Positions 17,591-63,331 of a stretch of 64,000 bases of DNA are shown here, one piece after another (positions within the stretch are counted from its first letter, which is position 1; each line of letters opens with the position of its first letter). The position numbers and the translations under genes are program-made. The DNA comes from Scenedesmus sp. ARA3. Taxonomy: Eukaryota; Chlorophyta; Chlorophyceae; Sphaeropleales; Scenedesmaceae. The notes under the pieces are model-generated. The model worked only from the letters and a program-made list of their open reading frames with translations. It was not told the origin of the DNA and did no database searches. Where the stretch lies: assembly GCA_004335835.1 (NCBI GenBank), contig RWJK01001870.1:1-64000 (forward strand). Direction: 5' to 3'.

Positions 17591-17850
17591 CAGCACTGCC
17601 CGCCTCGCCGCGCCAGCAGCTGCCTCATGCAGCAGCCTGCTTGGCTGCTGCTGGCGCTGCAGCCGACGCTGGCGCTGGCAGCGTGGCAGATGTTGCCAGG
17701 CAGGCACAAGCAGCGCGCATCTCGCCGCTCCGCCAGCTACCTCATGCAGCAGCCTGCTTAGCTGCTGCTGGCGCTGGCACTGGTGGTGGCGGCGTGGCAA
17801 ATGTTGCCAGGTAGGCAGCAGCAGCGCGCATCTCGCCGCGCTTCTTATGG
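17590..17850 (-). repeat. Tandem duplication at the 3' end of the dehydrogenase gene
   Basis: Two adjacent units of about 125 bp (about 17595-17720 and 17722-17845) share CCTCATGCAGCAGCCTGCTT, GGCGTGGCA(A/G)ATGTTGCCAG and GCGCGCATCTCGCCGC. The upper unit contains the coding end and stop codon (17742) of the dehydrogenase; the lower unit lies wholly beyond the stop. So the repeat spans the end of the reading frame. Confidence 0.75.
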
Positions 17851-20800
17851 CCACTCCACCTCAGCTCAGCTGCCATGAGCTCAGCCACCTGCGGGACAAG
17901 AGAGGACACAATGGCGGCAAGCACAGTATCGAGTGTGCATTATGCTGCGGCAGGTGAGTGGCAGAGCTGAGCAGCTATGCATCTCCTTTCACTGTAGCTG
18001 CTCCAACCTCAGCTCAGCTGCCATGAGCTCAGCCACCTGCAAAGCAAAAAGAGGGCACACGCACAGCATTGCGTGTGCATATTGCTGCGGCAGGTGAGTG
18101 GCAGAAGTTAGCAATTACGCATCTCTATCCGTTGCTTCCACCTCAGCTCAGCTGCCAGCAGCTCAGCCACCTGCAGGGCGGCAGCAGCATGATAAGAATA
18201 GGCTGATTGTAAGCCACACCTTTCAGCATCGGCACTGTGCCTCTCCCTTTATAAAGCAGAAACTACGACTAATATTGCCCCTTATTCAGTGCAAAGTAGC
18301 CCACCCAAACCCTGACGCGGCAGCAGCAAGCACAGCAGCAGCAGCACAGGTGCGAGTGCTGCAGCAGCGTGTTGTTTGCATCGCACTTACTACACAAGAA
18401 GTGCGTGTCAGTGCGTGCCAGTCCCAGCCAGCGTGTGCAGCTTGCTGCAGGTGATTTATATACGCAACCATCACATATCGATTCTGGCATGCATGCATGC
18501 TTATGCAGCGCCAGCTCACCCGTGGCACTGCTGCTGCTGCCGCCTTTGCGTCCAGGAAAGCCAGCCGGGTGCGCCGCGCCAAAAAGTCCTCCACAGACAT
18601 GCAGTACTCATGCCTGCAGCCACAGCAGCAGCAGCAGCAGGTATAAATTATAGCTTACCACAGGTTGACGCAGTGTTTGTGGACTTGAACATGTAGGTGC
18701 AGCACACAACCGGCCAGTAACAGAGGATGGAGTGCACAAGCAAAGCAGACGCTTCACAAGCTGACAGCCACAATAGTAACCTTGATGCCGCCAAGCAGCT
18801 CAACCCAGCTTGATCAGTGAACAGCAGAAAGTGCACACGGCGCCAGGCATGTCAGCCCAGCCAACAACGCTGCTGTTGTAGCAATCACTGCTGTTTGGTC
18901 GGACGATGATCAGCAGCAGCCGCTGCTGCAGCTGCGTTTTCAGCAGTGACAATGCAGGAGAAAAGGATTGAGCAGGACCCACCTGACTGCCCACACCACT
19001 TCGGACCAAGTATGGGTGCCCCGGCACCAGCAGCTTGCCCAGCTGCTGCGCGGCTGCCAGCTGTTTAGCTCGAACGACGTTTGATGGTCAAACATGAAGC
19101 AGCGCCCACTTGACTGACCACACCAGGCACCTCATGAACCAACCATCAGCAGAAATCACACACGGCGCCAGGCATGTCTAACGAAGAGGCTCGCTGCTAG
19201 TGAAGCAATCGCTGCTGTGCAAGCGGCACCCACCTGACTGCCCACACCACCTCGGCCTCTAGGTAAGGGTGCCCCGGCACCAGCAGCTTGCCCAGCTGCT
19301 GCGCGGCTGCCAGCTGCAGCACGTGCTGCGCCTGATCACCATAAGCAGCAGCCAGGTGGCGTGCTGTGGTGCTGCTGCAGGCTGGGCTGCTGGGCAGCAT
19401 CTCAGACGCCTGCTGCGCGACCTGCAGAGGATGCAGCAGCAGCAGCAGCAGCACATGCAGCGTGTGAAGAGCGTGTGTGCATAGAGCTGCTATGAGCTGT
19501 CTACATAGCGGTCGTTGGTATGTAGACATCGACATGCAGCTGCCAGGCGCACATGGCGGCAGCGCAGCAGCTTGCTGAACACCGGCCGTTGCTGTGTGTG
19601 TGATGCTGATGCCAGCATGCTGTTGGCTGCTGCAGGCATACGCCAGCATGCGCCGGTGCCCTGGAACCGCAAACATCCGGCAGCTGATGTAAGGCACCAG
19701 GTATCCCTGCTGCAGCTGTTGCGCCAGCATTAGATACAAAGCCTGCTATTATACTTCACAACGCCCACCTCTGCGTGCTGCGTGTGCTTGTAGGCCTGGC
19801 CTCCCAGCAGCTTCAGGCGCGAGGTGGTGCACTGGTGAGCCACCTGCACCCGCCCAGTGGCCAGCGCGACATCCACGGCATCCTCAGCCATGCGCCGGTA
19901 GGTGGTCCACTTGCCGCCTGCAGCACAATTAAACGTAACAATGTCTTGTAACACAGGCGTTCATTGTTTTGGTCAGCGCGGCATCCACGGCGTCCTCAGC
20001 CATGCGCCTGTAGGTGGTCCACTTGCCGCCTGCAGCACAGCACAGCGTTCTGTGTTGTTATGTGTGTCGTTATACAGGCGTATATTGTTTTGGCCAGCGC
20101 AGCATCAATGGCGTCCTCAGCCATGCACCGGTACGTTGTCTACTTGCCGCCTGCAGGATATAAAATAGGAGAGCATTTTGTTATGCAGCCATTCAATATG
20201 TTGCTGCCAGCGCAGCATCAACGGCGTCCTCAGCTATGTGCCAGTATGTGGTCCACTTGCCGCCTGCAGCACACCACAGTGGCAGAATGCGTTGGTGAAC
20301 AGGGTGTAACTGAGCCTGTTGTTGGCTCTGCCAACTGAGCTGTTCACTCCTGTGCTGAACAGAGTATGCAACGTGGCGCAATGGGGTGTCATGTGGTTCA
20401 GTTGCAATTCACCCTCAGCTGATCCCTGCCGCACCAATGTGTGGGGATAAGGCAGTCTGTCAGTTATCTGTCGGTTACTAACAGTTAAAGTCACGACTAC
20501 TGGCCACTGCACCTGTGATGGTGATGAGGCCGTTAGGCTCTGTGAAGATGAGGTGGTCCCGCACAATGTTGCCGGTGTTGCCCGCATCCTGTGCTGTGGG
20601 GTCAGCCGCCAGGGGCCGGATGCCACTCCACGTGGACAGCACGTCTGCGTGCCGCACCTGCAGCGGCAATCATCATCATGCATCAGATTAGCAGTTGTGC
20701 TGAGTCACAGCATCGTTGATGCCAGTGGCCCTATGCCCTCAGGGGTGACTCAGCTGCCAGGGGCCGGATGCCACTCCACGTGGACAGCACATCAGCGTGG

Positions 20801-23800
20801 CGCACCTGCAGTGGCGATTACATTACCATGCTTGGTCAGCGCAGCACCAACAGGCAAGCCGCAGCAGCAGCTGATCACATCCTGCAACAGGCACCCTGCT
20901 CTGTCGAGCACAATTCCAAATCCAGCGCCAACATCCGCAAAATCAATTATGAATCACAGGATGCTGAAACACAGCACACAGCACCTTGACTTGCAGGAAG
21001 TCCGAGCCGTTACGAACAGGCCACAAATGGGCATTGCAAAATCACAACACACCAACTCCTTGCACGCACCTTGATCTGCAGGAAGTCCGAGATCGCGTCC
21101 AGTATGAAGGCTACTTCATCAGCAGACGCCTGAGGCCGCGCTGTCACTGGGCAGGGTGCATCAGTAGTGCCTGCAATGATTGAACCTTGGAAGGGCAGCA
21201 TGAACACTACGCGCCCATCCTGCAGGCAGCAAGCAGCAGCAAACATGTGAGTGAGCAGCATTTGTCCTAGGTGCTGATGGTTTGTGCAGCACCTGCTGAC
21301 ATGGATTACTTGGTCGATGGGGCCTCACGAGCGCAGGGGGCAGCCCACCATTTTGACCCAGTAGCACTGCCAGCAATATGCGAGCAGGTGTTGAACGGTG
21401 GCTTGCGCTGGACAGCAAAGCAATGTTCGCAAAGGTATCAACAGACAAATTGCAGCGACAGTGTCAACGGCAGCCAGCACAGGCCCACACCTTGATCTTT
21501 GGCACGATCATGCGGAGCCGTACCACTCAGGCATTTCCATCATCCTGTGGGCAGCTGCTGAGTAGTGTTCTGGCACATAAAGCACGCGAATTTCCCTGAC
21601 AAACAAAAACAGGAAGTTATACAGCAGCAGCAAGCGTGGCCTCTCACCTTGGTCTTTGGCACGATCATGCCGACCCCTGCGGAGCCGTACCACTCAGGCA
21701 GCGTCACGTGGGCGCCTGAGCTGGCCGTGACGGCATGCTTCACGCAACGCCCATTCAGGTCGCGCACCTGGTCCACAAAGGGACCTGCGCAGCAGCAGCA
21801 ACAGCAGCAGCAGCAGGCAGTTGTGTGACGCCATCTTCACTAGCCACCAATGGCAGCCGTGCACGCCGCCAGCAGCAGCAGCATGCATGCAGATGAATGC
21901 AGATGCTGCTCAGGTAGCCGCACGGCAGGCACCAGCTGCTGCATGCAGCCGAGCATGATGTGCTTTGCTGCATGCGCACCTGTTGCGTTGATGACCACTT
22001 TTGCGTGCACGTCAAACTTCTTCCCTGACTGCTTGTCGCGGCAGTGCACGCCAGTCACTTGACCGTTGGCATCCTGCAAGCAAGCAGACGGCCCGGAGCA
22101 TCAGCTGTTAGCGCATACCACACACACACTGCATGCACATTAGTCTTGTGACATCACACGTGCTGCACAGGCAAGCTGCATAGGATTGTGCGCCCGCCCT
22201 CTGCCTCCCTTGGTTTGCCTTCTGCTTCCTGCTTCCCTTCTTGCTTTGTTGTTACTGGCAAATTGGGTCAATGGACACCAGATGTGCGGCAACATCATGT
22301 GTAGCTCATGCGCAAATCAGCATGCACAGCAGGATCACATGTGTGCACCTTGATGAGGCCAGCCGCCTCCACAAAGTTGTCAAGTCAGCACCATTCAATG
22401 CATGGCATTGACAAAAGCTCGATCAAGTGCGCTGCATATGCACATCACAACGCACCTTGATGAGCCCCGTTGCTTCCACGTAGTTGGCCACAGCTGCGCC
22501 TGCTGCGGCTGCTGTGGTCGCCAGCGCCACGTTCAGCCGCGCGTCATCAAACTGGCCGTCATAGTACAGAATCTGGGGCATGCGAAGGTGCAGCAAGACA
22601 CAGAAAAAAAAGGCACAGCATGACGGTACGGCACAATCAGGTAAGCCAAACCTCTTGGACTGGCCGTCATAGTACAGGGCCTGGCGCAAGGCAAGGCAGC
22701 ACGTGAAACCCACAGAATAGCAGGGCACGACACAGCCAAACATCGAAGTGGCTGTCATAGTGCAGGATCTGGCACAAGGGAACGCACAGCAAGAACAGCA
22801 AGATAAAGCCCAGCACCGCACAGCAAGAGTGGTCCACGCAAGCATATGCTAGCTCTGCCACTGCCACCACCCTCCACAACACGCAGACGACACTGCGAAA
22901 GATGTCTAATAGACGCTCCAGCCCGTGGCATGGCCGTGGGCGCTGTGCTGTGGAGTGCATGTTATAATTGACAGCCATCCCCACTGACACTTTGGGTGCT
23001 TGTTGCTTAGCCGCTGAGACAATTGATGATCAGGCAGTCTGCGACAGCGCGACTGCCTACTACAGCGAGTCAGCTGTCAGCTGTACCCCACACAGGGACC
23101 AGCAGCATGTCGTGCTTGGATGGCTCTGCCATCTTACCCACAATTTCAAGGCAGACACCCACACATATTTTGGCAGGCCAAAGCAGAGAAGAGCAGCCAA
23201 CTCAAGAACTAGCCGCGTCATGCACCGTGCCTTTGAGGCTGCTGCTATCGTGGCCTGATGTCAAGGACTATTGTTGCATACAAAGTCAACAGGAATCTGG
23301 GTTCTTTGCTGGTCAAAGCTAGGCCAGTGACAGCCAGTCATTTCACGCCCCAAAGATAACCCCACGCACCGTGCCCTTGAGGCTGCTGCCGTCGTGGTTG
23401 GCCTCAGCCAGTGTGGGCAGCCGCCGCAGCGACTCGCTGGGCAGCAGGTAGTTGCTCCACGCCAGGTTGCGCGTGCCTGGGGCCAAAATGCAACAAAAGA
23501 CACATCAGTTTGAGCACCGGCAGCCAGATGCAGCTGTGAGCCTTGTATGGATTCATACTGGAAGCAGGCAGTTGATCCATGCCAGGTTGTGCGTGCCTAG
23601 TGCTGCAGGAGCAGCTACAGAAGCCTGTGCCTAGTGCTGCAGGAGAAGCTACAGAAGCCTGTAGCCGCAGCAAAGGCAAGTGTGAGCATGCGGCAAGCGC
23701 TGCAGGACCTGATGCGGCACGCAGGCATGCAGCATCACAAAACCGCTGCACGCACAAGCTGCCATCTGCTTCACATCCTGCACTGCGATGTTGTCAAGCG

Positions 23801-26003
23801 CCAAGCACAACTGGATAAGGGTGTCCACCAGGTGCTGCCGACTGCAGGAGCCAGATGAAATTGTAACAACGTCCATGTAACAATGTAACAGCTAAGTAAC
23901 GCACCCGCGATGAGGTCGTAGGCCTTGAGCCCCGCCCAGTAGAAGGGCACCTCCCACCACTTGTAGCACGGCATCAGGATGGGCAGCGTGGATGTCAAGT
24001 GGGGTGCGTTGTCCAGCAGGTCCCGGCGCTCCTGCAAGCCCAGCGTGCACGTGCATGAACACAGCAGGTTCAGTGAGTTGCAGCGTTGATGTCTGCTTGA
24101 GCCAGTGTGAGGTGAAGAGCCAGCAGGTCACAGCGCTCTTGCAAGCGCCGCCCATTCAAAACAGCAGCAGTGATGTGTTACCATCAGTGTAAAGCGTGAT
24201 GTGCTGCGCCTGCGAGTGACGGAGGCAGGGCAGCGTGGATGTCAAGTGAGGCGCGTTGTCCAGCACGTCACGCCGCTCCTGCAAGAGCAGCACGACACCA
24301 GCTGCTTCAAGATGGCTTTAATCAGCTGTCCGGAGCCTCAAATGTGGAACACCAGTGCTGCTCTGTGCTATCACGTCCAATGACATAGCACAAGCCACAT
24401 ACCAACGTCTGCGACGCTTGCTGCCACAAGCCGCACCTGCAGCGCTGTGTACACCAGCTTCAGCTGCAAATTGCCACACGAACCAGATATAAGGATCCGC
24501 AACTACTTGCCGCCGCAACCACTTGCCGCCTCAAGCCGCACCTGCAGTACCTCGTACACCAGCTTCAGCTGGCCTACCTTCCCGCACCCCAATCACAACA
24601 TTGCTGCGCTGTGGCAGATCAACCCCCGACACACAAACGACCAAGCAACATAACATTCAAGCCGCACCTGCAGTGCCTCATACACCAGCTTCAGCTGCTG
24701 AAACGCCACAGTAAAACAGATTCAAGGAGCCAGACACCAGACACGCTAGCTGCCACAAGCCCCACCTGCAGCGTCTCATACACCAGCTGCTTCAGAATTG
24801 TTGTGATTCGAAAACCCAAGTGGTGCTCGGTGCTTGTATTGTACCGCAAACCACGAGTCGCACCTGCAGCGCCTCGTAGACCAGCTTCAGCTGTCCATAG
24901 TCCAGGTTGAACACTGCCTTCTCTAGGTAGCGCACCCCACCATGCACCAGCTTGGTGGACTTGCTGCTGGTGCCGCTGCCAAAGTCCTCGCGCTCTATCA
25001 GCGCGGTGCGCAGGCCCCTGCAACAGCAGCAGCAGCAGCGGGGCACCAATGATCATTGAGATACACAGCAGGATGTTCATGTATGCTGCTGGTGCCGCTG
25101 CCAAGGTGCTCATGCTCAACAAGCGCGGTGCGCAGGCCCTGCAGCGCAGTATCGCAGCATCAACCACGGAACATGCTCTGCGAGCAGGTACGGACCAGCT
25201 GTCTTGACAACGATGCATACCAGAGGTTGCAGATGTGCTGCCGCTACTGCTGTTGGTGCTGCTATTTACATTAGCGTTGCGCCCAAGGCTACCCTGTGCT
25301 GCTTCTGCTGCTGGTGCTGTAGTTTCTGGCGCGCTTGCTCCGCAGCAATGTTTGGTTTGCAAGGATGTTTGGTTTGCAAGGCAACCAGCACTCTAGAGAT
25401 TCATAAAACGGGTTGCAGGCAAAGGCCAGGTATTGGCTAGGCGAAAAAGGGTGTGTGCAGGAAACATGTACGTGCCCTCCAGGGCAGTGGCACTATGCTT
25501 CTGCTGGGTGGTTCCCTTCAGTTGTCGGCCAGATGCAGGCAGTACAACGCATATGGTGCATGACCTGGTTGCTTCTGCTGCAACGTGGCAAGCAGGTTGC
25601 TTGCTGTCATATTAACAACACGTTCATGTTTGATAAGTTGAAGCCCCTGTGTGCTGATGCTGCTGGTGTTGCTGCTGCTGCTGCTGCTGCTGTCCCGCAG
25701 CCGAGGTTGTGCATGCTTGCTGCACGTGACATGACCAGCTGCTGCCAAGAGCGTGTGCACCCACCTGGTTGCTGCATCCACTGCAATACCTGTGCCCGTG
25801 GCTCCTCCACCAATGACCAACAGATCAAAGGGCTGGTTGGGCCTTGAAGTACTCAGAGCAGCAACTTGCTGCTGCCGGGAGGGAACAGCGGCAGCAAGCA
25901 TAAGGTGCTCGCCCTCCTGCTGCTGTGTCGAGTTGAGGAGGATGCCTCCGCCAGCTCCAAGTCCCAGCACGCCCAGCCATGGTGCTAGGCGAGCTGAAAT
26001 CAT
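17742..26003 (-). CDS. SDP6: FAD-dependent glycerol-3-phosphate dehydrogenase, mitochondrial (SDP6-like)
   Basis: Oxidises glycerol-3-phosphate to dihydroxyacetone phosphate and feeds electrons to ubiquinone at the inner mitochondrial membrane. Thirteen exons with closed phases: 26003-25765, 25017-24864, 24031-23905, 23476-23370, 22572-22456, 22073-21980, 21784-21648, 21219-21070, 20657-20513, 19917-19769, 19421-19234, 18613-18520, 17888-17742, giving 615 aa, close to plant SDP6. Visible motifs: FAD-binding GGGATGTG (residues 65-72), [79 protein letters not shown] and a C-terminal [14 protein letters not shown]. The N terminus has a hydrophobic stretch suited to mitochondrial import. No EF-hand is present, as in plants and unlike animals. 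About 21 partial exon-edge copies sit in its introns. It is divergent from the SufA gene, with 276 bp between start codons. Confidence 0.95.
18004..18175 (-). repeat. Copies of the exon 13 acceptor (dehydrogenase)
   Basis: The exon 13 start CAG|GTGGCTGAGCTCATGGCAG (17888) is repeated upstream in the intron at about 18004-18043 and, with small changes (GTGGCTGAGCTGCTGGCAG), at about 18136-18175. Each keeps the CAG acceptor. Confidence 0.85.
18981..19065 (-). repeat. Copy of the exon 11 donor (dehydrogenase)
   Basis: A copy of about 85 bp of the exon 11 end, coding [13 protein letters not shown], followed by GTGGGT. It lies in the intron below the true exon end at 19234. A shorter trace is at about 19107-19125. 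Confidence 0.8.
19975..20275 (-). repeat. Three extra copies of the exon 10 acceptor (dehydrogenase)
   Basis: The exon 10 start CAG|GCGGCAAGTGGACCACC (19917) recurs at about 19977-20037, 20097-20156 and 20212-20272, all direct. The copies read on as [36 protein letters not shown] and [19 protein letters not shown]. The CTGCAG or CCTGCAG acceptor context is copied as well. Spacing is close to 118 bp. Confidence 0.92.
20745..21010 (-). repeat. Copies of the exon 9 acceptor and exon 8 donor (dehydrogenase)
   Basis: About 20745-20815 repeats the exon 9 start (CTGCAG|GTGCGCCACGCTGATG, reading on through TGGAGTGGCATCCGGCCCC). About 20982-21006 repeats the exon 8 end, coding SDFLQ(V)K, followed by GT. 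Both lie in the intron between exons 8 and 9, each beside the edge it copies. Confidence 0.88.
21487..21545 (-). repeat. Copy of the exon 7 donor (dehydrogenase)
   Basis: This repeats the exon 7 end, coding PEWYGSA and MIVPK(I)K, followed by GTGTGG. The true exon end is at 21648. A few internal bases are missing, which would break the frame if the copy were used. Confidence 0.82.
22347..22780 (-). repeat. Copies of exon 5 edges (dehydrogenase)
   Basis: Donor side: about 22347-22383 repeats the exon 5 end, coding [10 protein letters not shown], followed by GTGCAC. Acceptor side: about 22655-22695 and 22741-22780 repeat the exon 5 start (CTGTACTATGACGGCCAG and CTGCACTATGACAGCCAC). Exon 5 itself is 22572-22456, so the copies flank it on the expected sides. 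Confidence 0.85.
23217..23608 (-). repeat. Copies of exon 4 edges (dehydrogenase)
   Basis: Exon 4 is 23476-23370. About 23570-23608 repeats its start (GCACGCACAACCTGGCATGG). About 23217-23255 repeats its end (AGCAGCCTCAAAGGCACG|GTGCATG). Each copy lies in the intron next to the edge it resembles. Confidence 0.82.
24119..24285 (-). repeat. Copies of the exon 3 acceptor (dehydrogenase)
   Basis: The exon 3 start CTTGCAG|GAGCGCCGGGACC (24031) recurs at about 24230-24285 (CTTGCAG|GAGCGGCGTGACG, reading on through [12 protein letters not shown]) and, more weakly, at about 24119-24150 (CTTGCAA|GAGCGCTGTGACC). Confidence 0.85.
24435..24800 (-). repeat. Four copies of the exon 2 donor (dehydrogenase)
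   Basis: The exon 2 end (AAGCTGGTCTACGAGGCG CTGCAG|GTGCGA, true end at 24864) recurs at about 24764-24796, 24666-24701, 24539-24575 and 24435-24470. Each reads like KLVYE(A/V)LQ|GTGCGG, with a donor directly after CTGCAG. Spacing is about 95-130 bp. Confidence 0.92.
25075..25145 (-). repeat. Copy of the exon 2 acceptor (dehydrogenase)
   Basis: CTGCAG|GGCCTGCGCACCGCGCT repeats the exon 2 start at 25017 and runs on through GGCAGCGGCACCAGCAGC. The copy is 5' of the true acceptor in the sense direction. Confidence 0.85.
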
Positions 26004-26279: not shown

Positions 26280-28250
26280 ATGATTGCTCGTTGCCTCAGC
26301 GCTCGCACTCAGCTCCGTCCAGCGGCAGCCAGGAGTGTTAGGAGTAACGTAGTACAGGCAGCTAGGCCGGTGGCAGCGCAGCAGCAGCGGCGACTGGTGA
26401 CAGTTCGCTCAGGTGAGGTGCACCTGCTTCTGGAGCCTGCTGTGGCATGGGACTAGCAGCACAGCGTGCTTGAAGATCACATGTCTTGTGAGCAAGCCTT
26501 TATGATACATTGTAGGTCATGCTGCAGCACCCATGGGGCTGACATCGCCCAGAGCAGCAATCCTCCTACAGCAGCTGCATGCTGCAGTCCTGCAAGTGCT
26601 TTGCGTGCGCCACTGTGTGCCTCCGGTTGCCCTGTACTCATCACTCTTATTCTATACCATGTGCTGCATCCATTCTGACACGATCTATGTGCTTGGTGCT
26701 GGTGTCATGCTACAGATACGGGCAGCGCAGTGGCAACAGCAGCAGAGGTCGCACCGCAGCACGCCATCACGCTCACAGACAACGCGCTGTCTCACCTGCG
26801 CAAGCTGCAAAAGGAGGCTGGCAGCGAGAGCCTGCTGCTGCGTGTGGGCGTGAAGCAGGGCGGCTGCAGCGGCATGTCATACGTCATGGACTTTGAGACA
26901 GACGCAAACATCAAGGTGCGGCAGGGACTGGTCGCCTGAACACGGCCAGTACTAACAGTTTAGGCTGGGGTGTAGCAGGGATTCTTGTTAGAAGGCGCTG
27001 TTGAAGCTGCGGTGGGACATCAGCAGTCATGTGTGGCTGCAGCAACAGCAGCAGGCATGGCACAAGATACACCTTGGTTGTGGTGTGTCATCACATTCAG
27101 CAGCACAGTTTTGGTAGCTGCCAAGAGCTGGCGCAGCTATGTGTGGCCATCACACACAGCGCGCTTTGCTGCAGCTGTCAAGTTTGCTGCTGTCAAGTTA
27201 TCTAGCGGAGTTTTGGGTGCACCAGCAGCAGACGGCTGTGGCGTTGCTAGCTCTGTGCTGATCATCAGCAAGCGGCACCGATGTGCACATGTAAGGCACA
27301 GCCGTGCTCCTCCTGCATGACATTTCTCGTGTTGCTGCTGTGCCAAGCTTTGAACAGCCACTGCTGTTTGATGTGTGCCTGCATCTCTACAACACCATTA
27401 CCAGGAAGATGACTACATTCCAGAGTACGAGGGCGGCTTTCGGCTGGCCTGCTGTACCTCTTGCTGCTGTATCCATTTGCTGCGTCACTGCACCGCGTCA
27501 CTGCTCATCCCAACTTTAATGTGCCTCGCACTGTGTCCAACAGGAGGACGACTACATCGTGGAGTACGGGGGCGGTTTCAGGCTGGCCTGCGACCACTCG
27601 CAATGCTTGCTGAACCACTGTATGTGTGCCGCCGCCGCTGCAAAACTGAACAGGAGGACGACACCTTGCAAACAGGCGTTCTGTTGTCACGCGTCGCCTC
27701 GTTCGCTGCTGCTGTGGCAAGCAGCTACTATGGCCAGCTGCTTGTCATCTGACGTACATACTCTTTCATTTAACCTTATGCGCCGCAGGAGGACGACTAT
27801 ATTGTGGAGTATGAGGGCGGCTTCCGGCTGGCGTGCGACCCCAAGAGCCTGCTGTACCTCTTCGGCATGAGCCTGGACTACAGCGACGCACTCATCGGCG
27901 GCGGCTTCAACTTCAGGTATGCTTTGGCAGTGACCAGTCAACGTTTAGGGCTTGCTAGCTGTTGCGTTGGGCCTGCCAGCGTGCTGCGCACCACTGTCAA
28001 CTTGCGACAGGGTCATGCAGGTGTTGCAAGCAGCATCAGAAGGCGTGCGCCTAAAGCGCAGGGCAGCTTTTGCAGCAGTGCATCGCATGTAACCTCACCT
28101 ACTCCAGCACACTCCTCGACTCTGAAGATAACAGTCTGAAATGGGCAACCCTGGACTGATGTTGGTTTGCTGCCTGCCATTTCCTTGTTGCGCTGCAGCA
28201 ACCCCAATGCTGAGAGCAGCTGTGGCTGCGGCAAGTCTTTCTCTGTCTAG
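26280..28250 (+). CDS. SUFA: SufA/IscA-type iron-sulfur cluster A-type carrier, organellar
   Basis: An A-type scaffold or carrier that receives and passes on Fe-S clusters. Four exons with closed phases: 26280-26412, 26731-26915, 27789-27916, 28199-28250, giving 165 aa. About 45 N-terminal residues rich in Arg, Ala and Ser form a transit peptide, followed by the A-type core: [31 protein letters not shown] with Cys90, [31 protein letters not shown] and the C-terminal CGCG (Cys157 and Cys159). All three cluster-binding cysteines are present. The SDALIGGGF(N)FSNPNA ending is closest to plant plastid CpIscA in my memory; mitochondrial targeting cannot be excluded. The last exon is only 52 nt. Intron 2 holds three partial copies of the exon 3 start. 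Confidence 0.95.
27397..27670 (+). repeat. Three copies of the exon 3 acceptor (SufA)
   Basis: The exon 3 start GCAG|GAGGACGACTATATTG (27789) recurs upstream at about 27397-27460 (CCAG|GAAGATGACTACATTC, coding [14 protein letters not shown]), 27541-27600 (ACAG|GAGGACGACTACATCG, coding [16 protein letters not shown]) and 27651-27675 (ACAG|GAGGACGACACC). All are direct copies that keep the AG. The first two diverge after about 60 nt. Confidence 0.93.
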
Positions 28251-31570: not shown

Positions 31571-31574
31571 ACGG

Positions 31575-31791: not shown

Positions 31792-33005
31792 CAGGTCTGA
31801 GATGAAGCGCTCCCGTGCCTCGCGGCTGTCCTGCATCACGCTGGTGAGCTGCTCAGCCAGCTGCGCCTCAACAGCAGCAAAGGACGGCCGCGAGAAGGGG
31901 TCGGCAGCCCAGCAGGCGGCCATCAGCTCTGCAGCAGCAGCAGCAGTGGCGAGACAATGACAGCAGCGGATGCACACGGCTGAGCATATGGCGGTGGCAG
32001 CAAGCAGCCCCTGAGAGGTACCAGCCATCCAGCAGTCGAGCAGCTGGCACACGGCTGAAGCTACAAATTATGAAGAGCCAAGTGCAGCTGCTACTGAGCA
32101 TGTGACTAGAAAGAGGATACCACGCATGATGCTGGTCTGGCTGCAGCGCTGCTGTGCACCTCACCTGCATAATCCTGGGGCATCTCTGGCGGCACTGGGG
32201 GCCGCTTCTGCCACAGCGCCACCTGCTCAAACACCTCGCCTGGCGCAGCAGCAGACGCAGTGGCAGTAGCAGCAGCAGCAGCGAGACAGCACACAAAAAA
32301 CGGTGAGCACCGGCTCTGTTTGATTAGAGTGTCCATCTGATCCAGCAAACAAATGAGAGGGTTCGGCTGCTGCACACTGCTCAATGTAGTGCAGCGCAAA
32401 GAAGACAGTCCTGGATGTGGAGACCTCCCACATGAGGCAGGCGCCACAACAAAACAACACAAAATTATGCTGCTTGATTGATTGAATGAACGAATGACAT
32501 TGTTCACCCACCGTAGTGCAGCCCGCTGAAGGCGATCTTGGGTGTGAAGACCTCCCACATGAGGTTGATGCCACAACACAGCAGAACAACAGAAACAGAA
32601 TGCTGCTCGACTCATCAGACCGATCACAATCCTTTGCCCACCGCAGTGCAGCCCTGAAAAGGCAATCTTGGATGTGAAGACCTGCCACATGAGGTTGATG
32701 CCGCAACAAAACAACAAATCAGATTGCTGCTCGACTCATCAGACCGATAACAATCCTTCGCCCACCATAGTGCAGCCCGCTGAAGGCGATCTTGGATGTG
32801 AAGACGTCCCACATGAGGATGATGATCACATCAACTTGAAGAGCAGCTTTTCTTTATGGTCCAATTGATATACAATTCAAAACCCACCGTAGTGCAGCCC
32901 GCTGAAGGCGATCTTGGATGTGAAGACCTCCCACATGAGGATGCCAAACGCGTACACGTCACCGGCAGGGCTCAGCCGCCCCAGCCGCAGCAGCTCCGGC
33001 GGACT

Positions 33006-36360: not shown

Positions 36361-37374
36361 TAGCAGCAGGCATATCAGACTCTGCTGCTGGTGCGGGCGC
36401 AGGTGCTGCTGCTGGCTCCGGTGCTGCTGCCGCCCTGACCCTGTTGCTGCCTGACGACCCCTGCCGTGCAACTGTATTGCTACAGCCAGCACCAGCACCA
36501 GTGCCAGCAGCAGCAGCACCAGCAGCAGCAGCACTGCCAAAGCCACTGACAAGAGGCAGCCCCACTACGCTGCTTCCTGCAGACGCATTGGATGCAGGCA
36601 CATGTGGTGTACTGCCTCCCACTGTATTGCATGGTGTACTGCCTGCAAGTGTACTGCCAAGTGTACTGCCTGTCACGACAACACCTGGCGGCTTGGGGAA
36701 GCTTTGCTTGCCGCTGTCATAGATGCTGCTGCTCTCTGTTACTGTCTGCATCTTCCGCCGCATGACTGCTGATGGCAGCTCATCTGTGCCTGAGCTAGGC
36801 CGCCTCGAATTTGGGGTGAGTAAAAGAGACGGTGACAGAGAGTTGGAAGAGGCTGTAGAAGGCTGGCCGTAGTGCTGCTGCTGCTGCTGCGGGAGGGGCG
36901 CTGTGTCATCAGCGCTGTCGCTTTGGGCCCATGTGACAAAGTGGTACGCTGCCACGATGTTGAGATGCCTGCAAGCATGCACAGCAAAACGAGTACAATT
37001 CAGCCACACGATCACCACAGAAAGATGTTGAGTGTCGCATTTGTGTGAGGCAGCAGCAGGCATGTGTATCAAGAGCACACTGCAGTGGCGCCGACTTCAA
37101 AGGCTGAATTAAGCCTGTACACATGCTTTGCACAGTGTTTGCCTGCACTGCCATGCCTGCTGCTGCCTCTGATGCTGTTGCTGCTGTGCAGCCCAACACC
37201 ACTGCTACTGGCTTCTGCACAATAAGAACACCACTGCTACTGGCTGCTGTATGGTTCACTTGGCTGCTGATCATGCTGCTGCTGTTGCTCCACTACTGCT
37301 GCTGCACTTGATCTTGATGAGAGACCGCGCATCATCACCTGAAGCTCATGACCAGGTCCACCTCGCTGGCCACA

Positions 37375-37430
<56 letters not shown>

Positions 37431-40400
37431 AACTACCAAATGCTGCTGATGCTGCTGCCCATGAAAAACAATACATGTACTACCTACTGCATCACCTGAA
37501 GCTAATGAAAAGGTCCACCTCACTTGCCACTGCTGCTGCCACTGCTGCTGCCACTGCTGCTGCTGCTGCTGCTGCTGCTGTGCTACTACCAATGCTACTG
37601 CAGCTGCAACCCCTGAAAGATGATACCTTTACTACCCACTGCCTCACCTGAAGCTCATGACCAGGTCTACCTCGTTGGCCACTGCTGCTGCCGTGGTGCT
37701 GTCATGCTGCAGCACCTTGACAGCCACCGCCAGGTCACGCCACACGCCCTTGTACACGCGCCCAAAGCTGCCGGCACCTGCAGGAAACACAGCAAGCCAC
37801 ACCAGAAGCAGGAGAGCTGTAGCCAAATTGCACAGCACGAGCAGCTGCAGCACCATGCATGAAGAAAGAGCTGTTCTACCTAGAGACAAAGCTTGTGAAG
37901 TGTCACTCGCTCCCTTCTCGCAGCTGCAGTGCTCACCCAGCAGCACGCCCAACCGGATCTTGTCATTCGGGGAAGGATCCCTGATTTCACTCACGTAAAT
38001 ACTCATGCCCTCACTCGCTGATCGCCTCTCTCTCTCTCTCTCGCTTACCCTTTTACTCTCTTACTCTCACTCACCCAGCAGCACGCCCAGCCGTATCATG
38101 TCAATTGGCTTGGCGTGAGAGGGAGAGTGACAGGGTGTGAGGGGTAAAGGCAGTGAGTACGACAGGGAGTGAGCGAGAGAGCAAAGGGCTGAAGGACTCA
38201 CCCAGCAGCACGCCCAGCCGTATCTTGTCATTCGGCGAGGCGTCCCTGAACTCTGGGCAGGTGTGGCAGGCCAGCAGCTGCCAGCCGCCGCCCCTGCTGC
38301 CCACAGCCAGCGACTCCAGCGTGCCCGCAGCACCCCTGCAGCAGCAGCAGCAGCAGCAACAGGCACAAGATGATGTTATGTAGTGTCTCGAAGCATGTGC
38401 ACCATCTCAGCACCTGGCAATCGCCAGCGCCAGCAGTCACTTTTACCACAGTAGCCCGCGCTGCAAATGCATTCTATGATGCTGTCCAATGGCTATTGTA
38501 CAGCAGGCAAGCACTGAAAGCCATCTAGAATCATTCTAGAATCATAACAAGTTGTTACGCGTGGGTCATGGCACCATCCAAATACGGGCTGGGACATGTT
38601 TGCTTTCATCACTGCAGACCCATGCTTTTCCCGCCCACTGCCCATGCATCTATGTGCTGCAACATAGCCGCAAGCAAGCACACACCCGCGGGCGCCAATG
38701 ATGCAAATTCCTAAGACGTCTTTTGAGGCGCAAGTGCCTCGCGTACTGCAGACCCAAACCCTCCCGCTCACTGCCAGTTCCCTGCTGCATTGTGATACAT
38801 TGTGACACATTGAGACACATTGTAACGCATTCTCGTGCATGCAACGCACCCGCGCGCCCCGATGATGTCACTCGGGTTGCTCTCATCCTGCAGCCCCTTG
38901 CTGCCAGCAGAAGCTGAGGGCGGAGGCTGAGGCTGGTAGCCTTCTTTTGCTGACTTTGCTGCTGCTGCCACTGACTCTGCTGCTGCTGCTGCCATGCGGC
39001 GCTTCTTGCGCTTGTAATACAGCAGCACTGCGGCAAGCGATGCCAGCAGCAGGACACCTGCAGCGCAGTGTAGGAGCAAGCAGCAAGTTGCACCGACTAT
39101 TTGCATCATGCTGTACGCTCAGCAATAGTCCTGTGGCCAACATGCATGTTAGCAGCCGCAACAAACAGTGCAACGCATGGCACGCATTCATCAGCTGGTC
39201 GCTGCACTCGCATTGACAGATCCAAGTTGCTTCATACTGAGCTAGTACAGCACTGCAGCACACCCTTCCCCACCCATCCCCTTCCCCACCAGCAACAACT
39301 GGCGTCTGCCCCTCACCTGCCACAACAACCGGCGCAGCAATTGCCGCCACATTGACGCCGCGCCCGCCACCCTGCCTTGCAGCTGCCTCCTCTGCCAACA
39401 GCGCATTCACCGCCTCATTCAAACACAGATCTCCGCCCCTTTCTGCCACACAAGCTTCTGATACATAGCTGAGGCACACTCGTGTGGTATTCAGCTGCTG
39501 CACGGAGTAGCCGGCATAGTAGGCTTGCGTGTCGGCCACGTCGCCGGGTGACACGATGCTGCTCACGTCAGACGCACGCAATGAGCCTGCATGCAGCAGG
39601 CAGGGGTGGCGTAGTGTGGTGAAGATGCAGCAGGTAGGCGGCGTTCTGTTTGTTGCGCTTGCAGGAACCAGCTGGTCAAGGCGCTTTGAGTAGTTGCAGG
39701 CACTGAATGTTTGCAGGAGCATGCATGCAGCAAGCCCTGCAAACGGCTTGCAGACTTCAGAAGTGTAGTGTTACTTCAGAAGTACAAACACAGTTGTAGG
39801 GAAGTTCCACAACCCTGCGGCCCCGCCTGCTGCACACCTGGGTAATCAATGCCTTTATACGTGAATGTGCTCAGGTTGACTTTGTTGCTGGCCACATCTG
39901 TGACGCCATGGCCTGGCGGCGCACGCGGCGTTGCTTGCAGCGTAGCTACAAGGTCTGCAGCACTCGGTGCACACGCCAGGCGCAGCCGCACCACATTTTC
40001 CATGAGCAGCACGGAGCTCGCGCCCTCCCCTGCGCACAGCAGCAGCAGCAGCAGTTGCGGCACCAAATGGCATTGCTGTGTGTTGCAGCCGCTGAACTGT
40101 CACAAAGAAGGGTGGTCTGCTACCCAGCATTTCATGGCTTCCACAAACTGCAGCAGCCTGCAACCCACTGCTGCTACGGCGCAGCTGCCTCAATGAGCAA
40201 GGCAAGGCACACAACACAAACACACACAAACACGCACTGCAGTACCAGCTGCAGGCAGCCATGAGACAAGCACCCATATAAAAGCAGCCCGGGGAGCTCC
40301 ATTGCAAAGCACCCCACACACTCGCAAAGAAGGGAGTGCCTTGATGCAAACACCACTCCTGCAACACTACATGCTGGCTAATGCTCGATGTGCATGGCCA

Positions 40401-50003: not shown

Positions 50004-50169
50004 CTTCAAACCATGCTGCATACAAGCCGACTGCGTTTCCTGGGCATCATCTTCACAGCTCATTCATCAAAGGCAGCTGCTGTCCGTGCTCAACCATCCC
50101 GGCACGAATATCACAAAATACGGCCTTCCCGTTGGACTCGTTACTGCACGGCAATCCCACCATAACAAG

Positions 50170-57557: not shown

Positions 57558-58857
57558 TCACTCACTGGTTGCGGGATCTGCGGCCTCTTGCTCTTCCACT
57601 GTTTGCTGCGGGCTGGCAGCGCTGCTGCTGCCGGGCGTGCCTGGTTGTGGTGGCAGCAGCGCACCCACCAGCAGCTCTAGGCGGTGAGGGTCGCTTAGGT
57701 GCAGGTGGCCCACCTGCGACATGCACCGGTTGCAGCAATGTGGGCTTCCTTGCCTGATGGGGCATTTCTGCAACTACACGCATATGCACACGACCGCATC
57801 CGTAACTGTGGAAGCACCATTGCAGCCGCATGCAACGACACACGCCCACAAAGCAGCTGTGCATTGCCAGCGTAGCATAGGAGTCAGCGACCCACCAGGG
57901 CCTCCAGCATCTGTTTACCAACACCTGCCGCCACAATATGCAAGCATCACACAAGCAACCAGCCGGACACTGCCAGCCACCCACCAGCGCCTGCATCGCG
58001 GTCGCCTTTCTGTACGCCGTTGCTGCTACCACACGCATTAAACACATCCATACATAAACTCATCACTCTTGCAATAACCCACCAGGGTTTCCAGAGCTGT
58101 GGCCTTCCTGTACGCCTCTGCTGCTGCTGCAAGGCTTGCACGGCACAACCTTGTCACTGCCTTTGACCACCTTCAACAGCCACCAACTCCTTCAAGAAAA
58201 TACGTGCAAAGCAGCCAAGCAGCAACAGTGCAACTGCCAGCGACCCACCAGGGCCTCCAGTTCTGTTGCCTTCCTGTACGCCACTGCTGCCGCCACATGC
58301 AACACAAATACATCCACACATACACTCATCACTGTTGCAGCAACGCACCAGGGCCTCAAGTGCTGTGGCCTTCCTGTAAGCCTCTGCTGCCGCCACACAC
58401 AACACAAACACATCCACATCACAAATCACAGTATAACAATTGCAGCAACCCACCAAAGCCTCCAGAGCTGTGGCCTTCCTGTCCGCCTCTGCTGCTGCTG
58501 CAAGGTCTACACAGCACAACGTCCCTGCCTTTGACCACTTTCAACAGCCACCTCAAGCAGCACCGAAAAGCCAAAACACCGAAAAGCAGCCCAGCAGCAT
58601 CAGCAAAACAGTCAGCAGCCCACCAGCGCCTCCAGAGCTGCTGCCTTCCTGTAAGCCTCTGCTGCCGCCGCATGCAACACAAACACATCCATACATCACA
58701 CTACAACAGTTGCAGCCACCCACCAGGGCCTCCAGAGCTGTCGCTTTCCTGTACGCTTCTGCTGCTGCAGGGCTGTCGAAGCGCTTCCGCAGCTTGACAG
58801 CCTGCCAGGCAGCGATGCGGCGCAGCAGCGCAGCCTCAGCAGCAGTCAGCTGCAGCG

Positions 58858-58901
<44 letters not shown>

Positions 58902-59910
58902 AGCAGCTGATCGAACAAGGCTGCCTGCAGGTTGTGGGTTTGGGGAGTGAAGCAATGTATGCAGAGGGGTGCTGGTGAGCAGTGGGCAACAGCGTGATGT
59001 GTTACTGCTGGGTGTGACATGAGCATGTTGTGTATGGTATGCAGCCGTAGTAGCGTGCTGCACGGCCTGGCACATGCTGTTTGTTGTGCTGCTGGGTCAA
59101 ACGACTTGGTCATAGTTGTCCCAATAGTCAAGCAAAGCAGCGTGTGCCGTTACCTGTCCTTCTGCAGTCACGTAAGGCCGCACCGCGCTCTGGTACAGTG
59201 AGTGGTGCTTTGGGGGGTTGAGGAAGTGGCGCCGCACACACAGCTGCAGTGCAGGAGAACCAACAAGAAGCCCTCTGTTGTGTCAATGCTGGCACAGCGC
59301 ACAAGGTGATGAGCAGTGCTGATCTGGCCAGCTGTTGCAGCACTTTGCGAGTGAGCCAGCTCCAAAGAAGCTGTACTGCAGCTGCTGAAGCTCTACTCGC
59401 AGAGCGCCTCAACTAGCATGCAGCTGCAAAGGCAAGTGGCAGCCGCAGTAACACATGGGTGCTGCTAAAGAATTGTGTAGCAGACTGCAGGGCTGCTGCT
59501 GATGATGCTGCTCGATGGCTGACTGCTGCTGCTGCTGCTGCTGCTGCTGCCATTGTTGCAGGGAGCCGGGTGGCTCCTGCACACAGCTGGCCAATACAGC
59601 TACTACTCACACTCCAGATAGCATCGCCAAGGAAGGCTAGCGCCAGTGTATCGTCTGCTGTACTGCTGACAGCTTTGATTGGTTTGCTATTGCTGGCAGC
59701 AGCGGCTTGTATGCTTCTGCGAGGAGTGCGGCACGCTGCAAAGAAGCTGGCTGCTGGCCGTAACCTAGTTTGTGACGGCAGCGTTGATTGTTCAGCTAGG
59801 CTGGAAAAGCGTGTGAATCCAGATGTTGGTACAGTTGTGCTGCTGCATTTGTGCCTACACCCTGCTTGTCCGTGATGTTGCTGTAGCTGCGTCATGTTGC
59901 TGGCATGCAT
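57558..59910 (-). CDS. Mini-ribonuclease III (plant RNC3/RNC4-like), probably plastid
   Basis: A small RNase III without a double-strand RNA-binding domain; plant and bacterial relatives trim ribosomal or intron RNA. Four exons, phase 0 throughout: 59910-59611, 59243-59154, 58924-58724, 57713-57558, giving 248 aa. After a transit-like N terminus of about 85 residues come LALAFLGDAIWS (Asp96), LCVRRHFLNPPKHHSLYQSA, VRPYVTAEGQ, LTAAEAALLRRIAAWQAVK, the second signature AYRKATALEALVG with Glu195, and HLHLSDPHRLELLVGALL. This matches mini-RNase III in order and length. A run of about 14 serines is inserted after DQLLSS. The C-terminal end is uncertain, because ACCA|GTGAGTG at the stop could also be a donor. 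Seven copies of the exon 3 donor fill the last intron. Divergent from the ZIP gene, 361 bp apart. Confidence 0.88.
57885..58775 (-). repeat. Seven copies of the exon 3 donor (mini-RNase III)
   Basis: The exon end coding AEAYRKATALEAL with donor GCCCTG|GTGGGT (true end 58724) recurs in the last intron at about 58617-58665, 58449-58495, 58344-58390, 58246-58292, 58079-58125, 57976-58020 and, weakly, 57888-57925. Most copies keep GAGGC(T/G)TACAGGAAGGC and the G|GTG donor; several are preceded by a similar GCATGTGGCGGCAG word. Spacing is about 98-168 bp. Confidence 0.95.
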
Positions 59911-60271: not shown

Positions 60272-63200
60272 ATGGTGAGCATGGCGGGCAGCTACATTCA
60301 GCTTTCTTGGGACACCGGTCCTCTCACGCTCCCAGTCAGCCTCATTCGATCACCTCGTTCTGCAGGCAGTTCAAGGAAATGTTGCCCTGGCCTTCGGGCT
60401 GGTCGTGGCTGCCGGCATGTGCACATGCTTCGGAGCCATGCTGGTGTTCTGCACCAGCCTCGCAAACCACCGGGTGCTGGCTGCAGCACTGGGTGCTTCA
60501 GCAGGCGTGATGATGGTGAGAGATCGGCCAGCATCTTGAAGGCTGAACTAAGCATGGAATCTATCTAGCACAGTCAGCTCACTACAGCAGCTCACTGGAC
60601 CCGTCAACCCTGGACCTGTGTGCTTTGTTCTTGCAGCGGTGATGTCAGATGCACGAGGATGCAGTGCCACACCTCCAGTGGTTTGCAGCAGCATGCTTGC
60701 ATTGCTGCTCTGGCTGCACCCCCACATCCCATCACCCCTGACCCTCTCATCTCACAGCCCACAAGTCACCCTTCCTCCCTGCCATCTGCCACCTGCCATG
60801 CAGTACGTGAGCTTTGTTGAGATCACCAACAAAGCAGTCACCGCGTTTGCTGATGCCGGCATGCCCGCTCACGAGGCAGCCCGCTACGCCACCTTCTCAT
60901 TCTTCCTGGGTGTGGTTGCCACCTGGCTGCTGGGCAAGCTGGTGGACTGCCTTGCCACAGCAGCACGCGTTATTCAGGCCAGGAAGGTGCGAAGCATTCT
61001 GTGATGGATAACCAGATGTCAGTGGGTGCGTTGTCAGAGATAGGATGGCACACAGCATCCAGGACCAGACACCAATAGGCGCAAACAAGCAGCGAGGCAT
61101 GCGCTGTGGGGTGATGTTTGGTGTCTGTGGGCATCCGGCCCTTTTGCAAGGTTGTTTGGTGATCGTAATAGCATTCGGTTGCAATGCCATGGTTGCTATG
61201 CCATGGATTTTTTTTTGAGTGCTCACACCGGCCGTTGCTTGCTGCTTGCAGGAGCGTCTCGCTGCAAGCGGCCGTGCTGGACGCTGTGCGCAGTTCTCTC
61301 TGTGCTCCTGCATTCCTGGCGCTGGCAGCAAGGCAGCCGCAGCAGCAGACGTCGAGTCTGGCGGCGCAACTGCCACAGTGGTTACTGCCGGCAGTCTTCA
61401 TCATCAGCAGCTGGATGTTGACGCATGCGGCGCAGCAACAGACCAAGCAGCCAAGAACCACACCACCTCCTCTTCCGCAGCCGCTAGCAAGGGCCCTACA
61501 GTGTCAGCTGATGCAGCGGCCGTTGACCCGCTTGCTGCACCAGCTGTGCCGCCTATGGTGCTGGCTGCAAGCGGCTGCAAGTGCGGCTCTGCAGCATCGT
61601 CTGTGGATGGCTCTGTCACCATGTGCGACTGCTGCTGCGAGGGAGTGCCGCCTGCAGCACCCCTGGAGATCCCCCCACAGGTGAACAGGCTGCTTCGTTG
61701 TGGACAGAGAGTTTTCAGATAGCATGTAAGCATGTAAGTATCCTGAGCACGTCCGATCGAAATGTGGCGTAGTGCTGGCAGGGTGGCATGTGCAGCCACT
61801 GCTCTGATGAACCTGTCGCCTTGCAGGCGCCGTGTGCGGTGCACACCATTGGATATCGACTTGGTGCTGCCCGCTGACTGCCAGCTGAATGTGGCAGGAG
61901 CTGCTGCATGAGCATTTTTAAACTGTTGGATCGACTATACGGCGGCTGCTGCGTGTTGCTTCGGTTGCTTGCTTGCAGGAGAACCTCCAGCTGGCGTCCA
62001 GCCCTGCATGCAGTCGTCTGGCACGCAGGACACCAGTATTTTACTGTCTGCTGTGTGGTGAACCCAAGGTGGTTTGAAAGTGGCTTTCTCCTCTGAGTTC
62101 ACCTCTTGCTAGAAATACGTGTAATTGATTGATTGATTGTGTGGTGTGCGCTTGCAGGAGAACCAGCAGCTGGCGGCCATGATCGCGTCTGACCCGCACG
62201 CCGCTGACCTGGCGCGCACCGGGCTGCTGACGGGGCTGGCGGTGGGCCTGCACAACCTGCCTGAGGGCCTGGCCACGTTTGTGGCCACACTGGCCTCACC
62301 CTCTGCTGGCATTGCCATCGCTGTGGCCATGTGAGTGGTTATTTGCGTGGTTTGGATGTGTACTGAAGGCCTGGCCACCTTTGTGGCCACGCTGGCCTCG
62401 CCATCCGCTGGCATTGCCATCTCTGTCGCCATGTGAGTGCATCTGTGTGTATGGCATCTGTAAAGGGAGGCCTGGCCACGTTTGTGGCCACGCTGGCATC
62501 ACCCTCTGCTGGCATTTCCATCGCGGTCGCCATGTGAGTTGTGCATCCTGTGTGTATTCAAAATGTCAGGATGTCATGAGTATGCATGCGCGCCCTGCTC
62601 TACTTGCTTGCCCATTGCTTCTTGTTTGCATGCAGTGCGCTGCACAACATTCCGGAGGGCGGCGGCGTCGGCAAGCCCATCTACCACGCCACCCTCCTGT
62701 ACATACTCTGTACATGCCCTTGACTGTCCTGTTTTGCTGTTCCCTGCTGTTTGTTTGCTGCAGTGCGCTGCACAACATCCCGGAGGACGTCGTCGTGGCC
62801 ATGCCCATCTACTACGCCACCCTCCTGTACATGCCCTTGACTGTCCTGTTGTGCTGTTCTGTTCCTGTTTCGATGCTGCAGTGCGCTGCACAACATCCCC
62901 GAGGGTGTTGTTGTGGCCATGCCCATCTACTACGCCACTCCCCCAAATGCACTGCACCCTCAATATTGCATCACTTTTTCTGTGCATGCAGTGCGCTGCA
63001 CAACATCCCTGAAGGCGTCGTCGTGGCCATGCCCATCTACTACGCCACCAAGTCCCGCTGGCGCGCCTTTGGCTGGTCCTTTGTGAGCGGCGTTGCAGAG
63101 CCCATCGGCGGCTTGCTGGGCTATGCTGTGCTTGCAGGAAACGGCATGTCCCCGATCGCTTTTGCAGTCATGTTTGGCTTTGTGGCGGGCATGATGGTGT

Positions 63201-63331
63201 ACATCAGCGTGCGTGAGCTGATTCCAACCGCGCTGCGCTACGACCCGACAGATAAGGCGGTGACCAGCTCATGCATTCTGGGCATGGCAGTGATGGCCAG
63301 CAGCTTGCTGCTGTTCAAGGCGCAGGGCTGA
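60272..63331 (+). CDS. ZIP-family metal transporter (ZTP29/ZupT-like)
   Basis: Moves zinc or related divalent metals across a membrane into the cytosol; plant ZTP29 is an ER protein, and the location here is not visible. Six exons with closed phases: 60272-60274, 60366-60515, 60804-60986, 61252-61680, 62158-62330, 62992-63331, giving 425 aa. The first exon is proposed as the ATG alone (ATG|GTGAGC). Membrane segments include [39 protein letters not shown] and a cluster at the end. Both ZIP metal motifs are present: HNLPEG (His287) and HNIPEG (His316), then [16 protein letters not shown] and [13 protein letters not shown]. The loop between segments 3 and 4 (about 140 residues, exon 4) is Ala/Ser-rich with Cys clusters (CKCG, CDCCCEG) that might bind metal, which is inference. 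Intron 5 carries five exon-edge copies and intron 4 one. Confidence 0.93.
61972..62000 (+). repeat. Copy of the exon 5 acceptor (ZIP)
   Basis: CTTGCAG|GAGAACCTCCAGCTGGCG repeats the exon 5 start (CTTGCAG|GAGAACCAGCAGCTGGCG, at 62158) about 180 bp upstream. Confidence 0.85.
62368..62535 (+). repeat. Two copies of the exon 5 donor (ZIP)
   Basis: The exon 5 end coding [18 protein letters not shown] with donor GCCAT|GTGAGTG (true end 62330) recurs at about 62368-62432 and 62470-62533, each closing with GCCAT|GTGAGT. Spacing is about 102 bp. Confidence 0.97.
62625..62945 (+). repeat. Three copies of the exon 6 acceptor (ZIP)
   Basis: The exon 6 start GCAG|TGCGCTGCACAACATC (62992) recurs at about 62625-62720, 62755-62850 and 62870-62945. 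The copies code ALHNIPE(G/D) and PIY(H/Y)AT and include the pyrimidine tract before the AG. The first two continue with TACATGCCCTTGACTGTCCT before the next acceptor; only the last, true copy runs on into the transporter end. Confidence 0.97.

Follow-up and report, generated by a model that had tools for sequence, protein, structure and literature searches.

Intronic copies of exon edges with coding-like divergence in the green alga Scenedesmus sp. ARA3

Introners place many repeated, splice-site-carrying sequences across one genome, and the decoy exons of detained introns (e.g. in OGT) are exon-like and have intact splice sites, yet are mostly not joined. Here we describe intronic copies of neighbouring exon edges in the green alga Scenedesmus sp. 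ARA3, starting from a 64,000-bp stretch of contig RWJK01001870.1 (positions 1 to 64,000; hereafter the window). For duplication at exon borders, one study reports a tandem duplication in the potato RdRp gene that crosses an intron-exon boundary and in which the duplicate inherits the splice signals (PMC4974935). The same study cites intron gain by tandem duplication of an AGGT-containing segment (Rogers 1989; Hellsten 2011, PMC3265369; via PMC4974935) and intragenic duplications that include segments with entire introns (Gao and Lynch 2009; via PMC4974935). A systematic pattern of junction copies was not found described in the open-licence full-text literature, as judged from search listings, and a term search of the main text of two Scenedesmaceae/Sphaeropleales genome papers (PMC12571836, PMC7955037) did not return the word "intron". 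The first-pass annotation stated that no description of such a systematic pattern is known; a single boundary-crossing duplication had been published, and the search listings showed no report of a systematic pattern.

Exon-edge copies in the window and across the genome

Gene models in the window were rebuilt from reading frames and splice sites, each exon was then aligned with its own introns, and copies were called at a fixed alignment threshold (score of at least 34). Not used as queries were kinase exon 3 (1.7 kb, low complexity), the poly-serine stretch within the RNase III exon, and most outer ends of genes. Five genes contain 38 exon-edge copies (dehydrogenase, 17; kinase, 8; mini-RNase III, 6; ZIP, 5; SufA, 2), one further direct match away from an exon edge, and no inverted match of an exon to its own introns. 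The gene names are backed by Pfam: DAO and DAO_C for the dehydrogenase, ZIP, Fe-S_biosyn for the SufA-like gene, the RNase III domain, and protein kinase. The exon-edge copies that the first-pass annotation had described as filling introns are thus real, and its counts (about 21, 12, 7, 6, and 3, in the same order) exceed ours, at least in part since the threshold removes weaker copies; one weak copy of dehydrogenase exon 2 and one of ZIP exon 1, near 61971, are seen by eye.

The copies lie in the intron adjoining the copied junction and in direct orientation, as had been claimed. In particular, in four genes, 26 of 72 adjacent exon-intron pairings gave a direct match, none of the 72 gave an inverted match, and only 1 of 1408 non-adjacent pairings gave a match, which excludes chance. 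The non-adjacent count, together with one segment that matches its own locus only, also led us to reject a dispersed mobile element or introner as the source. Over the whole window, with short tandem repeats masked, 64 repeat pairs within 2 kb are direct and 2 are inverted. Two further junction-type pairs (12191/11951 and 2989/2823) may be the cases that the first-pass annotation reported in a Q-rich and a LisH gene. The intronless ArfGAP region (4255-10112, Pfam) shows triplet-type tandem repeats only, with no junction-type pair among pairs less than 3 kb apart, in agreement with the earlier statement that this gene has no copies.

The pattern extends to carB, a gene picked from E. coli independently of the first-pass annotation, whose algal homologue lies on another stretch (L035). 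Copies are present at 7 of 24 tested carB junctions, with 10 edge copies and no inverted match. It extends further to a genome sample of 20 stretches spaced by contig number (196,375 bp; GC content 0.55-0.62, near the 57% given for Tetradesmus obliquus in PMC5966456), in which non-simple repeats within 2 kb comprise 178 direct and 0 inverted pairs, and to 8 further stretches used as a hold-out, with 34 direct and 0 inverted. A splice-junction signature is present in 45.6% of 125 repeat units versus 18.5% of 2421 random placements (19 stretches; threshold 10, which passes 71% of 56 known junctions), and at threshold 14 there are 148 junction-type pairs versus 23 in reversed and complemented controls, counted with the repeat-rich stretch L015 included. 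The stretch L015 (G000:C1000:5001-15000) itself contains dense tandem arrays with units of about 78 bp, a multiple of 3, and probably encodes a repeat protein.

The arrays have a polarity. In an annotation-free analysis of 27 stretches, the upstream copy runs into more coding-like sequence in 15 of 19 donor-type clusters, and the downstream copy does so in 20 of 22 acceptor-type clusters; the outer copy is the coding-continuous one in 35 of 41 clusters, as expected if, as had been proposed, the outermost copy stays in the reading frame.

Introns with copies are longer than introns without (mean 577 bp, n = 17, versus 297 bp, n = 20; Mann-Whitney p = 1.6e-5; 37 introns, four genes). The arrays span 5218 of 15744 intron bases, and without them about 270 bp would remain for each copy-bearing intron, indicating that the arrays account for the length difference between the two classes and upholding the earlier proposal that duplication lengthens introns. 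Longer introns offer more space for copies, yet matches to unrelated introns are almost absent. Mean intron length is 462 bp in Tetradesmus obliquus (Scenedesmaceae) versus 230-302 bp in three other Sphaeropleales, according to PMC5966456; one duplication process might explain this lineage-wide difference, and junction arrays offer a concrete, testable route of intron growth.

Successive junctions in the window arrays are spaced by 85-251 bp (median 126). It is extremely unlikely that the arrays were created by faulty assembly, for instance by a tandem misjoining of haplotypes: the contigs are short and the arrays are known from the assembly alone, but misjoins are not expected to spare coding sequence or to pick one side of a junction, the copies differ from one another and recur at similar spacing, and the window contains no N.

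The copies and their loci in the window are as follows (exon numbers follow our gene models).

17742..26003, minus strand: FAD-dependent glycerol-3-phosphate dehydrogenase (SDP6-type), 13 exons, 17 intronic copies at 12 exon edges (exon model and database protein P0001)
25084..25139, minus strand: dehydrogenase exon 2, 5' edge, one copy upstream of the exon
24437..24697, minus strand: dehydrogenase exon 2, 3' edge, three copies (24437-24466, 24542-24574, 24668-24697), each followed by a GT donor
24228..24278, minus strand: dehydrogenase exon 3, 5' edge, one copy
23560-23596 and 23226-23253 (within 20985..23596), minus strand: dehydrogenase exon 4, single copies of the 5' edge and the 3' edge, respectively
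22659-22677, minus strand: dehydrogenase exon 5, 5' edge, single copy
21491-21533, minus strand: dehydrogenase exon 7, 3' edge, single copy
20985-21006, minus strand: dehydrogenase exon 8, 3' edge, single copy
20750..20805, minus strand: dehydrogenase exon 9, 5' edge, one copy
19970..20263, minus strand: dehydrogenase exon 10, 5' edge, three copies (19970-20029; 20091-20150, the middle one, with an in-frame stop; 20206-20263)
18983..19063, minus strand: dehydrogenase exon 11, 3' edge, one copy with a 2-nt deletion
18001..18170, minus strand: dehydrogenase exon 13, 5' edge, two copies (18001-18036, 18137-18170)
17625..17728, minus strand: last dehydrogenase exon, copy of the 3' part including the stop codon, located past the stop
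27405..27595, plus strand: SufA-like (Fe-S_biosyn) exon starting at 27789, 5' edge, two copies
32386..32821, minus strand: kinase exon 9 (32888-33003), 3' edge, four copies, with GT lost in the farthest
37339..37563, minus strand: kinase exon 2, 3' edge, two copies fused to expanded CAG runs
37937..38116, minus strand: kinase exon 1, 3' edge, two copies
57985..58668, minus strand: RNase III-domain exon 58724-58924, 3' edge, six copies
62363..62533, plus strand: ZIP exon 62158-62330, 3' edge, two copies
62636..62938, plus strand: ZIP exon 62992-63331, 5' edge, three copies

Some side observations belong with this list. The CAG runs beside the copies of the kinase exon 2 edge are unequal in length, suggesting that triplet runs expand within the array; a near-perfect CTG run (44 units, 98% matches) lies at 43827-43959. 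Duplication is also seen across the ends of coding regions, at the dehydrogenase stop listed above and, in a repeat of similar kind, at the apparent kinase stop (31665-31816). Between 43200 and 53200, small proteins share a signal-peptide-like start, CKAALALLLAACLVMA..SRPLA (open reading frames 42905-43504 and 49822-50601, about 7 kb apart), and one of these proteins overlaps a repeat with partners about 3 kb apart (50185/53106), suggesting a local gene family.

Codon-position bias of divergence and its border at the junction

The copies have diverged in the manner of coding sequence. Mismatch between exon and copy is 0.056, 0.068, and 0.201 at codon positions 1, 2, and 3, a third-position ratio of 3.25 (95% bootstrap interval 2.0-5.0, 19 families), and mismatch between copies of the same exon is 0.113, 0.115, and 0.242, a ratio of about 2.1 (1.3-3.0, 10 families). 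Neutral simulation with a constrained exon gave exon-copy ratios with a median of 1.4-1.5 and a 97.5th percentile of at most 2.13, and reached 3.2 in 0 of 300 runs at each of five ages. For pairs of copies, the simulated ratio was 1.06 (0.72-1.41) versus 2.14 observed; the equal substitution at all three positions expected on the branch of a neutral pseudo-exon was thus not found. The nonsynonymous/synonymous ratio in the window is 0.47 versus a simulated neutral mean of 1.54 for the same edges (1.02-2.24; 2.5th percentile 1.02-1.07), the best simulated fit has a copy omega of about 0.3-0.5, and in-frame stops number 1 in 584 codons versus 4-5.5 expected (P 0.025-0.085).

Consistent values were obtained outside the window. 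Specifically, carB mismatch is 0.051, 0.043, and 0.169 by codon position, with a third-position ratio of 3.6 and a nonsynonymous/synonymous ratio of 0.45 (the simulation having been made for the window edges only), and the genome stretches give a third-position ratio of 2.23 (1.80-2.78, 41 clusters). Annotation-free mismatch periodicity over repeat pairs, with L015 included, shows a slight excess only (0.479 versus 0.456).

Other explanations were weighed. Base composition was rejected, its predicted relative third-position rate being 0.93. Gene conversion, one-way and two-way, was likewise rejected, with a simulated third-position excess of about 1.1-1.35 and nonsynonymous/synonymous ratios of 1.4-2.2; these runs reached higher divergence than observed, and ratios rather than levels were compared. 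Plain neutral relics, that is, random tandem duplications in free decay, account for the orientation, the polarity, and the lengthening of introns, and are in keeping with the copies that carry stops and frameshifts and with the hold-out stretches taken alone; given a simulated third-position excess of 1.4-1.5 against 3.2 in the window, 3.6 in carB, and 2.2 in the genome stretches, we regard this explanation as very unlikely. The mainly synonymous divergence is not predicted by simple duplication and decay as set out in the first-pass annotation, and is a new element beyond that reading.

Import of copies from strongly diverged alleles by recombination between haplotypes, with the synonymous differences predating the import, would yield many synonymous and few nonsynonymous differences without any intronic function, and the close relative Scenedesmus sp. 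NREL 46B-D3 is reported to be likely diploid with separated alleles (PMC7955037). This origin would require very high synonymous diversity (about 0.2 by our own estimate), copies of the same exon differ from one another at least as much as they do from the exon, and a single 401-base DNA query found no second, allelic place in the assembly. We consider allelic import unlikely.

Similarity drops sharply at the junction. Aligned without gaps, exon and copy have an identity of 0.88 across the first 25 bases of the exon and of 0.94-1.00 in the splice dinucleotide, which on the intron side falls to 0.465 (bases 7-20) and 0.36 (bases 21-40) at donors and to 0.41 and 0.28, respectively, at acceptors, versus a baseline of 0.26-0.31 at unrelated junctions. 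Per 100 bp, there are 1.4 gaps in the exonic part of the alignment and 6.3 in the intronic part, the latter figure being raised by forced alignment. These values come from junction-anchored extension and the ungapped profile, which replaced an early identity measure with free end gaps that was uninformative, scoring unrelated introns alike. Intron-side homology of at least 30 bp is present in 19 of 38 exon-copy pairs, against a chance level of 33% of 81 unrelated junction pairs. Content from both sides of the junction is accordingly shown for part of the copies only; direct orientation and adjacency hold. The copy located past the dehydrogenase stop codon has mismatches of 3, 5, and 2 by codon position and so, in this one case, no codon bias; its existence suggests that the rule applies to coding borders in general rather than to splicing alone.

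Splicing, origin, and retention of the arrays

A database protein has the same length as the dehydrogenase model (615 amino acids), with three residue differences, and includes none of the inner copies. Its source contigs are no longer than 2437 bp, while the gene spans 8262 bp; it is probably the product of a spliced transcript from the same or a very near strain, the contig size pointing to an RNA source. The next matches are from Scenedesmus sp. PABB004 (73%) and then other green algae, which makes the source a Scenedesmaceae-like alga. Similarly, a predicted protein of NREL 46B-D3 is 95.5% identical to the partial carB model and matches it fully in exons 2-4. At the four exon joins that are occupied by arrays here (1-2, 2-3, 11-12, and 15-16), this protein contains no additional residues.

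Of 48 copies (38 in the window, 10 in carB), 46 retain both bases of the splice dinucleotide; one of the two exceptions is, by eye, an alignment offset. The spare splice sites of the first-pass annotation therefore exist, but the 615-residue protein gives no sign of their use, and no in-frame sites of the sort that cassette exons require were found at the opposite edges. In particular, the best opposite-edge sites give a length divisible by 3 in 3 of 19 donor-type and 2 of 9 acceptor-type copies, and 10 of 38 copies have no such site; weak or absent far-edge sites and no excess of frame-preserving lengths argue against cassette or mutually exclusive exons. Read-through to a far splice site was rejected because unit spacing is evenly spread modulo 3 (26, 25, and 24 by remainder). 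Frameshifts and stops number five and one among the 38 window copies and two and one among the 10 carB copies.

These observations bear on whether the inner copies are used in minor mRNA isoforms, which would put both their peptides and their splice sites under direct selection. Such use would fit the low nonsynonymous/synonymous ratios in the window and carB, the intact splice dinucleotides, the fall of identity beyond the exon side, and the absence of codon bias in the copy past the stop. The lack of an excess of frame-preserving sites, the spacing, the frameshifts and stops, and the dehydrogenase protein without any copy speak against it, and we judge it unlikely.

We consider it probable that the arrays arise by serial tandem duplication across splice junctions at many places in the nuclear genome, tolerated because splicing keeps the outer copy. 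Repeated tandem duplication spanning junctions had been proposed in the first-pass annotation and is supported by orientation, adjacency, polarity, and the longer introns. A segment straddling an exon-intron junction would have been duplicated in tandem, often repeatedly; the copy joined to the exon body (the upstream-most at donors, the downstream-most at acceptors) stays in frame, and the others are intronic and lengthen the intron. The inner copies would presumably be ignored by splicing in the main mRNA, such that duplications would be tolerated where purely exonic ones would not be.

How the inner copies stay coding-like is less certain. Recombination between the direct repeats might collapse an array and fuse an intronic copy to the exon body, each inner copy would then be a possible future exon end, and selection could act on this in a very large population. 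With low confidence, we suggest that inner copies are kept coding-like by occasional testing as part of the gene, most likely through such collapse.

Several points weigh against this reading. First, some of the findings themselves: 6 of 41 clusters lack the expected polarity; homology of the units on their intron side frequently escapes detection, so that some copies could have another origin; four other direct matches in carB include none within 6 bases of an exon edge; and two-way conversion simulated without population-level selection does not reproduce the codon pattern. The hold-out stretches alone (10 clusters) give non-significant third-position ratios of 1.71 (0.94-3.17) at threshold 12 and 1.46 (0.81-2.55) at threshold 15, and the codon-bias controls give 1.4-1.6 for complemented and 0.9-1.2 for reversed sequence. 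Second, three genes contain 17 families at junctions against a single intron-only family, where random placement predicts junction to intron-only ratios of 0.42, 0.35, and 0.87. Intron-only families are poorly detected (with exon-derived sequence masked, four families are detectable, one of which is the intron-only one), and they are therefore under-counted; about 6-8 would still be expected by arithmetic, and the excess suggests that something beyond tolerance may favour junctions. Third, the samples: the carB edges tested were 24 of 32, as the others could not be fixed; the genome stretches were picked by spaced contig number, hence non-randomly, and the contig of the window supplied three of them (L020, L027, L028); the model of splice sites and coding sequence applied to the stretches was trained on genes of the window itself; L015 (48 repeat pairs) was dropped from the junction tests and the substitution spectrum because it looks like a coding tandem array; units above 200 bp or containing N were dropped from the junction-signature test, and clusters under the score limits from the cluster-based junction and polarity tests; and some scripts also ran without part of kinase exon 2 as a query.

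Going beyond serial duplication itself, we advance only tentatively, and as doubtful, the possibility that, throughout the genome, the intronic copies serve as a store of spare exon ends under protein-level purifying selection, acting via minor transcripts or swap-in by array collapse. If so, intron sequence in this alga would be partly selected as protein code. Intronic sequence with a coding-type substitution pattern and without evident cassette exons breaks the usual assumption about introns, would mislead gene prediction, and calls for a new splicing role or a new population-genetic explanation.

Comparison with described systems

Introners copy themselves into many genes, whereas the algal copies each derive from their own neighbouring exon. 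Decoy exons are complete exons; the algal copies are arrays of copied edges, known here from sequence alone. Intron gain through AGGT duplication, as summarized in PMC4974935, resembles the algal arrays in that the duplication is tandem and the protein is unchanged, but there the duplicated exon segment supplies both the GT and the AG of a new intron, whereas in the alga existing introns grow: in the one gene so checked, the dehydrogenase, the arrays each lie within one intron, the protein has no extra piece, and the new intron that the AGGT model places between duplicates was not found. The potato RdRp duplication is alike in crossing an intron-exon boundary and in passing splice signals to the duplicate, and differs in that it is one isolated case, in which a new intron is created and an additional piece of exon retained (PMC4974935). 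In the alga, no new intron is seen where the protein can be checked; instead, existing introns absorb the copies, in many genes, and the copies are coding-like.

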